Source of the DNA: Spinacia oleracea | Taxonomy: Eukaryota; Streptophyta; Magnoliopsida; Caryophyllales; Amaranthaceae | DNA: 64,000 nucleotides | Direction: 5' to 3' | NCBI RefSeq assembly: GCF_020520425.1 | Contig: NC_079488.1 | Coordinates: forward strand, 4,255,747-4,319,746 | Part shown: positions 2,769-4,797 of the stretch, piece by piece | How the letters are laid out: each line of letters begins with the position of its first letter | How positions within the stretch are numbered: the first letter of the stretch is position 1 | Notes under the pieces: model-generated | What the model was told of the DNA's origin: nothing | The model's database searches: none | What the model saw: only the letters and a program-made list of their open reading frames with translations | Made by a program: the position numbers and the translations under genes

Positions 2769-3180
2769 TGATGAACTAAAAAGTGATACCGCAAGTGCAC
2801 GGTGTCTGTTGTTAGCAGATACTTAGCAAATACGGGTCGATCCCACAGGGAGACAAGTTCTATTAGTTTTTGCCCAATTATACGAACTATTTCAATAACG
2901 AAAGTTGATTTTGGATATTATTAACTACTGAAGCTAAAGCAATAATGTAAATGTGAAATTATCAATGAATTAAAAGGTCTAGGGCGACTGTTCGGTTCAC
3001 CATGCTTATACCAATCCAAGAACACAAATCAATCCAGAAATGAATAAACTAAGCCGAGTCATTAAAGTACATGTTAATCCTACGGTCGGGTCTTAACACT
3101 TTCAATTCAACATATGCAGTACGGTCGCTAACTTAATCAGAATTGCCAATTGTACTAAGCCTCTAAAAATACGATCTTTT
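2769..3180 (-). repeat. Partial second LTR copy (probable R-U5)
   Basis: About 412 bp nearly identical (roughly ten differences by eye) to 3259-3667, the U5-side part of the full LTR. It begins with the same TGATGA end next to the PBS and stops abruptly at 3180, where tRNA sequence starts. In sense orientation this leaves only the 3' part of an LTR directly before the PBS, the part a genomic RNA carries at its 5' end (R-U5). That the break marks the transcription start is inference. Confidence 0.8.
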
Positions 3181-3252
3181 GTTGTAGTATAGTGGTAAGT
3201 ATTCCCGCCTGTCACGCGGGTGACCCGGGTTCGTTCCCCGGCAACGGCGCCA
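3181..3252 (+). tRNA. tRNA-Asp(GTC) copy with CCA, retrotranscribed primer remnant
   Basis: 72 bases match plant tRNA-Asp from nucleotide 4 to the terminal CCA: D arm, anticodon stem CCCGC/GCGGG with anticodon GTC at 3211-3213, T stem CCGGG/CCCGG, acceptor 3' strand and CCA. The first three tRNA bases are missing. The T loop reads TTCGTTC where TTCGATC is expected, so position 58 (base 3234) is T instead of A. Nuclear tRNA genes do not encode CCA, and the copy runs straight into the LTR spacer exactly as a primer tRNA would. It is therefore best read as a DNA copy of the reverse-transcription primer, not a chromosomal tRNA gene. The altered B box and broken acceptor stem make function unlikely. 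Confidence 0.85.
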
Positions 3253-3258
3253 AAAACT

Positions 3259-4797
3259 TGATGAACTAAAAAGTGATACCGCAAGTGCACGGTGTCTTTT
3301 GTTAGCATATACTTAGCAAATACGGGTCGATCCCACAGGGAGACAAGTTCTATTAGTTTTTGCCCAATTATACGAACTATTTCAATAACGAAAGTTGATT
3401 TTGGATATTATTAACTACTGAAGCTAAAGCAATAATGTAAATGTGAAATTATCAATGAATTAAAAGGTCTAGGGCGTCTGTTCGGTTCACCATGCTTATA
3501 CCAATCCAAGAACACAAATCAATCCAGAAATGAATAAACTAAGCCGAGTAATTAAAGTACATTAATCCTACGGTCGGGTCTTAACACTTTCAATTCAACA
3601 TATGCAGTACGGTCGCTAACATAATCAGAATTGCCAATTGCACTAAGCCTCTAAAAATACGATCTTTCGATTCTAATTCCTATTAGCTAGATAATCAATT
3701 AATGAAATTGGCCGATAACATGAATCAACAATTAAAACAAATCAATCGGAATACTCAAGCAATAATCTATAAATTAACAAACTTTATGCATAATAATCAT
3801 GGTATAAACATGGCTTCCCTTACTTAGCCCTAGAATACGACTACTCGCTCATAATTGAATTAACAAACATGATAGAAATAATAAACATGAATTTCATAAT
3901 CAAAGGAAAAATTAAACTAAGGAACGAAAACAATAATAACAAATTAAAGCAAAAAAAAAACGATTCTTGAATTACCTCTAGATTGATGAATTGAAAATTG
4001 AAAAGCTAGGGTTCAACAATGGAATATGGAAGAATAGAAAAACTCACGTCAAAGAGTTTCTAGGAATTGAGAACGTAAAAGAAAATAAAAGCATAAGGGA
4101 ATACATTAATTCCCTTGAGGTGTTTTAGTGTTTCCTAAATTCTAAACAAAAAAAGAAAAATAATAATAATTACATAAGTTATCATTTAATTGAACGATCA
4201 CGAGAAACGACGCAACGAACCCACATAGAAGTAGCTGGGCGGAGAAACCAGCGGGCCCGCTGGTGGGTCGCTGGTTTTCGCGCCCAAGGGGAAGATTGGG
4301 CCATCATTTTGGGCTTTGGGCGAAGCGGATAGTCGAGCCATCTTGTTTATGTTATAACTCTTGTTCTACAATGCTTATAAGGACGTGTGACCTGTCGTTG
4401 GAAAGCTCTTGAAGTCTACTTTCTAGGCCAATAAAAATCGTCTCATTCCAACATGTAGAACTTGAGATATCATCAAAAGAGTGAACGCTTGTCCGTTTTG
4501 ATGCTTAGAAAAATAGCGTTTAGCTTCGTTGTTGACTCCAAATTATCCCTAGAGATATGCAATGATCCTCGAGTCAACATTCCATCCATTCATCATGCAA
4601 ATCAACTCATAACACTCCGAAAGCATCCAAATGACCGTAAAATCACCTGAAACATTAAGAAAACACAAACGGAGCGTAATAGAGTACGACAACGATAACT
4701 TATGCAAATGTGATCCTAAATGCAACTAAAATGATATAAATGCCTAATAATGCAACCTAAATGCGCCTAAAATACCTTATACAAATATGACTCATCA
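3259..4797 (-). repeat. Full 5' LTR of the gypsy element
   Basis: 1,539 bp bounded by TGATGA (3259) and TCATCA (4792-4797), perfect inverted ends for this LTR family. The U5 half is duplicated at 2769-3180. No convincing TATA box is visible about 30 bp upstream (minus strand) of the point matching base 3180; only a TTATCTA-like stretch near 3686-3696. No ORF in it is believable. Confidence 0.8.

Follow-up and report, generated by a model that had tools for sequence, protein, structure and literature searches.

The window, a stretch of 64,000 nt from the spinach assembly (C2:4255747-4319746), contains part of a retroelement whose minus-strand order is LTR-B, spacer, tRNA-Asp copy, LTR-A, spacer, primer-binding site (PBS) and gag. 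Its features are the following:

3259..4797, minus strand: complete LTR (LTR-B) of 1539 nt, which in element sense starts with TGATGAGT and ends with TTCATCA; termini read from the sequence
3253..3258, minus strand: spacer of 6 nt that separates LTR-B from the tRNA copy, identical in sequence to the spacer at 2763-2768
3181..3252, plus strand (tRNA sense): DNA copy of the primer tRNA-Asp(GTC), nt 4 to CCA, from ARAGORN, Rfam and alignment
3235-3252, plus strand: the ordinary 18-nt PBS stretch within the tRNA copy, from the alignment
3234, plus strand: T at canonical position 58, which is A in 33 of 33 tRNA-Asp copies without an LTR spacer
3179..3181, no strand: junction TTG, which we read as a 3-nt microhomology TCG
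2769..3179, minus strand: truncated second LTR copy (LTR-A), equal to the last 411 nt of the LTR, from LTR comparison
2763..2768, minus strand: spacer between LTR-A and the ordinary PBS, from the sequence
2745..2762, minus strand: ordinary 18-nt PBS for tRNA-Asp (nt 59-76) with C as the adjoining base and no read-through, from the sequence
1633..2688, minus strand: gag open frame (Pfam Retrotrans_gag PF03732, 2e-17), with relatives annotated in Spinacia oleracea

The element and its tRNA copy

The LTR has TG...CA ends, the 18-nt PBS is complementary to tRNA-Asp, and the gag domain adjoins the PBS; a gag piece (1633-2640) had 91% identity with a protein of Spinacia oleracea at 99% query coverage, and gag relatives occur in Beta, Chenopodium, Apium and Daucus as well. 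The element is probably a tRNA-Asp-primed retrotransposon of the Ty3/gypsy type, perhaps of a lineage such as Athila, going by PBS and LTR size only. That plant non-chromovirus Ty3/gypsy elements are known to use tRNA-Asp as primer is stated in passages of PMC6317226. Over about 20 kb to the left of the window no second LTR of this family turned up, and seven frames tested there (L018) had no pol domain, so that the element seems truncated or interrupted. A simple search for a TATA box in LTR-B found nothing; a possible transcription start at the truncated end of LTR-A thus gained no support. LTR-A and LTR-B (2769-3179 and 3259-3667) differ by 6 substitutions and one 2-bp indel across 411 nt. 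Transversions account for 5 of these 6 substitutions, which seems unusual for later decay of a plant repeat.

The original prediction had tRNA-Asp, from nt 4 to CCA (3181-3252), running without a break into the LTR spacer, and the sequence, ARAGORN (tRNA-Asp(gtc) at 3178-3252) and the Rfam tRNA profile (match at 3181-3245, 44.5 bits) agreed on this point. The CCA of the copy and the spacer are in register with LTR-B. A T in place of A58, with no other difference from tRNA-Asp, had also been predicted; over nt 4-75 we indeed found a single mismatch to the tRNA-Asp reference, an A>T change at linear position 57 (canonical 58, window position 3234). The ordinary PBS (2745-2762) was borne out as stopping at nt 59, the preceding base being C. 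Over the aligned part, this reference was exact in 24 of the 33 genomic tRNA-Asp copies that are not joined to an LTR spacer.

The junction between the tRNA copy and LTR-A deserves a closer description. The complete LTR reads GATCTT-TCG-ATTC at 3661-3673, the tRNA starts with G-TCG-TTG, and the junction observed in the window is GATCTT-TTG-TTG. It is best read as a join at the TCG common to tRNA nt 2-4 and LTR 3667-3669, with the original C at 3180 having presumably become T by a later CpG>TpG change. The earlier claim that the first three tRNA bases are missing was correct insofar as the copy aligns from nt 4; under the shared TCG, however, the copy probably reaches nt 2, so that nt 1 alone would be absent.

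tRNA-Asp copies across the spinach genome

The source assembly (894 Mb) was searched with an 88-nt query from the window, which carries T58. The DNA of each of the 41 matches was examined, and the window alone matched the query over its full length. Alignment of the tRNA-Asp copies gave A58 in all 33 matches that are not joined to an LTR spacer, with 15 nt downstream viewed, and T58 in none. A full encoded CCA was present in only one of these 33 copies (L016), which has 6 other changes, is without LTR spacer and was counted among the genes. The other 8 of the 41 matches continue past the tRNA 3' end into an LTR spacer; in two of them, L012 and L013, the CCA reads CAA.

A second scan used a pattern of nt 52-76 that accepted any base at position 58 and up to 2 mismatches, and its reversed control gave 0 matches. 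It found 26 places, namely 14 gene-like ones (all A58), the 8 known fusions, one new fusion (L040) and three ordinary PBSs of one family (L044, L052 and L065). Since this pattern recovered all nine joined loci, the excess of T does not stem from the T of the window query. The genome search proposed together with the original prediction thus yielded nine LTR-joined tRNA-Asp copies, seven with T58 (the window, L009, L010, L012, L013, L014 and L017) and two with A58 (L015 and L040). Fusions are rare, amounting to less than 1%: 9 versus the 965 places at which one pattern of the ordinary Asp PBS, requiring C at nt 54 and hence not a sample of all PBSs, was found. Because a 6.1-kb block with 98% identity is common to L012 and L013, these two were merged as one event, giving T58 in 6 of 8 events. 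Against the 33 unjoined copies, Fisher's test gave p = 1.3e-6 by loci and 6e-6 by events.

The T58 events were of varied families and break points, their tRNA 5' ends lying at linear nt 1, 4, 4, 4, 9 and 29. In L010, the complete tRNA from nt 1 to CCA, plus 8 nt, is inserted in gag. One of its junctions has a 6-nt CAGGCT common to the LTR start and gag, and 2-3 gag bases are lost relative to L017. It looks like the product of a reverse transcriptase (RT) that left gag, copied the minus-strand 5' end and the tRNA to the physical end, and returned. The tRNA copies of L012/L013 and L017 are connected to the spacer and a few initial LTR nucleotides beside an ordinary PBS, as if a lengthened plus strand had become linked to a minus strand that stopped shortly beyond the PBS. 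What follows the tRNA in L009 and L010 is limited to the spacer and the initial LTR bases. On the other side of L014, the sequence from about 180 nt away is 67-75% like part of L010. As for the two A58 fusions, L015 has 4 further changes, each C>T or G>A, and L040 covers nt 39-75 with no other change, its LTR being recognised only from the spacer and first bases.

Two simple accounts of the window copy were rejected. A tRNA-gene origin is at odds with its T58, its encoded CCA and its downstream LTR spacer, in which it is unlike the 33 other copies. A unique accident at position 58 is at odds with the same base in seven of the nine joined loci.

Origin of the T at position 58

In our view, with a probability of roughly 0.85, the window preserves as a fossil in the chromosome a faulty plus-strand synthesis, during which RT misread m1A58 of the attached primer. 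As is expected of a plus-strand read-through product, the copy starts at CCA, is joined to the LTR via the spacer and continues past nt 58. Normally, plus-strand strong-stop synthesis extends over the LTR and the terminal 18 nt of the tRNA, which is still linked to the minus strand, halts at the methylated A58 and transfers via pairing at the PBS. Here, RT would have crossed m1A58 by inserting a dA, which appears as T on the tRNA strand, and would have gone on almost to the tRNA 5' end (nt 2 or 4). The extended 3' end, because it was unable to extend at the PBS, would then have moved by the 3-nt TCG match to the minus-strand LTR, and the resulting product would be LTR - tRNA copy - partial LTR - PBS - gag. 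We infer this order of RT steps from the arrangement in the chromosome.

The presence of m1A58 in spinach tRNA-Asp is an assumption of ours. In passages of PMC4787781, the sequence 5'-m1A-U-3' leads to very efficient misincorporation of dATP by RT, that is, to A>T. As tRNA-Asp has U59, the A>T change at position 58 agrees with this published behavior. For HIV-1, m1A58 is described in parts of a recent review (PMC13191261) as the usual stop of plus-strand strong-stop DNA, unmodified tRNA being copied to its 5' end. The proposal that RT read through the primer and left a scar at position 58 was supported by our survey, with T58 in 6 of 8 joined events versus 0 of 33 unjoined copies.

A copy made from an unmethylated primer might also have acquired T58 by later ordinary mutation. 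LTR-A and LTR-B have already diverged by the 6 substitutions in 411 nt and the indel mentioned above, 2 of the 6 being A/T changes, and the A58 fusions indicate that read-through sometimes leaves no scar. What strongly disfavors this explanation is the recurrence of one and the same change at one site in 6 of 8 events. Outside position 58, the 501 sites compared across the 8 events contained 8 substitutions, not counting insertions in L012 and L014, and no identical change recurred; linear position 62 was altered in both L015 and L017, to different bases. At this background rate, the chance of 6 of 8 is about 6e-13 for a site and change named beforehand, and that of 5 of 7 without the window about 9e-11. 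We therefore regard later mutation as extremely improbable.

The primer pool might instead have contained a U58 variant or an edited form of tRNA-Asp that was faithfully copied, which would yield the identical T58 across unrelated families. Such a variant would have to be reconciled with T58 in none of the 33 unjoined tRNA-Asp copies, although the assembly may miss genes, and A58 is part of the pol III B box and nearly invariant. A variant primer is very unlikely, if marginally less so than a later mutation.

The events would not be independent if a single ancestral T58 fusion had spread by transposition. L012 and L013 share their 6.1-kb block, and L010, L012 and L017 come from related families. 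The fusions differ, however, in their tRNA 5' ends and in their partners, which are LTR interior, U5 end, gag and other sequence, and no long match to the other T58 loci was seen in the 1.8 kb that follow the copies of the window, L009 and L014. Descent from one fusion can thus hardly be upheld.

The base beside the ordinary PBS offers another possible source, from which T58 could have been recombined. At the same locus this neighbour is T in L010, L012/L013 and L017, so that in these loci element sequence is a conceivable source of T58. Among the matches listed for the ordinary Asp PBS pattern (100 of 965, all on contig C1), the PBS-adjoining base, position 58, was T in 59, C in 27, G in 14 and A in none. 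In the window, however, the PBS neighbour is C and the fusion has T, and the same holds for L009, near whose fusion a PBS followed by the matching LTR start has C as neighbour. Moreover, nt 57 and the bases further inward are those of the tRNA, so that recombination would have to exchange one single base. We hold such an exchange for very improbable, if a shade less so than later mutation, and retain misreading of m1A58 as the explanation.

The PBS family of L044, L052 and L065, which is related to L014, likewise has T as PBS neighbour. In these loci (around 1508), the Asp PBS is extended by TCGT, and in L044 TTCGT corresponds to nt 54-58 of the tRNA and has T58. This is possibly an inherited over-extension with the same scar, and possibly chance.

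Other primers, known systems and further observations

An initiator-Met pattern matched 12 places, all A58 in the matched letters, of which 11 were viewed (L066-L073, where L073 spans L074-L076). Among these 11, L066 alone is a tRNA copy with CCA beside an LTR, L070 is an ordinary PBS-like sequence, and the others look gene-like. At L066 (1026-1948), a complete initiator-Met tRNA with A58, CCA and one change in 75 lies between inverted LTR arms that are identical in 361 of 427 aligned columns (84.5%), an arrangement that suggests snap-back priming via the copied acceptor stem. An Arg pattern gave two fragments, L086 and L087, both with A58 and each continuing into CCA and an LTR-like sequence common to the two. 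Position 58 lies in an A-U context here too, L086 extends only about 9 nt past position 58, and ARAGORN found no tRNA gene in either. The Lys pattern matched 7 places, all A58 in the matched letters and none followed by CCA, and no fusion was found among them. Read-through patterns had 0 matches in viral contigs (Asp, initiator Met) and 0 in genome contigs (Asp).

Outside tRNA-Asp, T58 was therefore seen in 0 of 3 events (2 Arg, 1 initiator Met), and over all primers in 6 of 11. The A58 in two Asp, two Arg and one initiator-Met copies means that read-through does not always leave a scar; unmethylated primers, correct bypass or a different RT are possible reasons.

The biochemistry of m1A58 bypass is already known. 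In HIV-1 work on tRNA-Lys3, as described in parts of PMC13191261 and PMC1785368, RT likewise continues past position 58 of the attached primer if the m1A58 stop is absent or fails to hold, and the extended strong-stop DNA is poor at strand transfer. That work was done in vitro or in cell culture, whereas the spinach product lies in a plant chromosome and has a base change at position 58. Proviruses from an A58U E. coli tRNA-Lys3 contained no extra tracts of tRNA sequence according to a passage in PMC1785368, with data not shown there. The extent of the m1A58 stop in living cells is disputed even for HIV-1, as passages of PMC1785368, the differing studies cited there and PMC13191261 indicate.

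Primer tRNA sequence is also trapped at LTR junctions in HIV-1 2-LTR circles (PMC5618025). These are unintegrated and tied to defective RNase H activity, and the passages concerned report no change at position 58. Helenus TRIMs are LTR retrotransposons with tRNA-like sequence, plants included, but in the relevant passages of PMC10886601 this sequence lies inside the LTRs, is proposed to act as promoter and lacks complementarity to the PBS. A Helenus-type TRIM was rejected for the window, where the tRNA copy lies outside the LTR, contains the PBS stretch and is the primer with CCA. The m1A signature known from RNA sequencing, in passages of PMC4787781, is the same A>T at m1A followed by U; it arises with laboratory RT on purified RNA, whereas the spinach scar is inherited genomic DNA. 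For chromosomal read-through copies with a change at position 58, we found no description in the open-licence papers searched, from which absence in print does not follow.

Recurrent scars would be natural evidence that the RTs of retrotransposons meet, and sometimes cross, m1A58 in vivo, and the scar would show in vivo the same error as RNA sequencing. The junctions show the behavior of RT after failed strand transfer. How T58 and A58 are proportioned for each primer tRNA and element family could be surveyed in assembled plant genomes. Going further, we would put at somewhat below even odds the idea that primer-tRNA methylation is archived in plant chromosomes in datable form, T or A at position 58 of each fusion showing if RT had encountered m1A58 in the replication event concerned, and that recurrent dA insertion may also have shaped the PBS-adjoining base and given the L044 family its PBS extended to about nt 54-57 with T58.

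Several other features were noted in the window. The region 5939-6260 is an array of 38-bp units containing inverted repeats (GCCCTC...GAGGGC). At 2027-2133 on the plus strand, antisense in gag, a marginal Rfam match to plant snoR71 (40.2 bits, cut-off 40) is probably not a snoRNA gene. ARAGORN reported a tRNA-Asn with anticodon ATT at 6372-6447 on the minus strand, which Rfam did not find at its cut-off and which is probably a degenerate copy. Two long uninterrupted copia-type polyprotein frames (RVT_2, rve) lie on the plus strand at 46204-50232 and 52621-56451. Finally, a repeat of 93-99 bp at 94-98% identity occurs in the window at 36359, 37818, 51094 and 60689, as well as in L012, L018 and L039 and, in L014, some 300 nt inside the LTR region.
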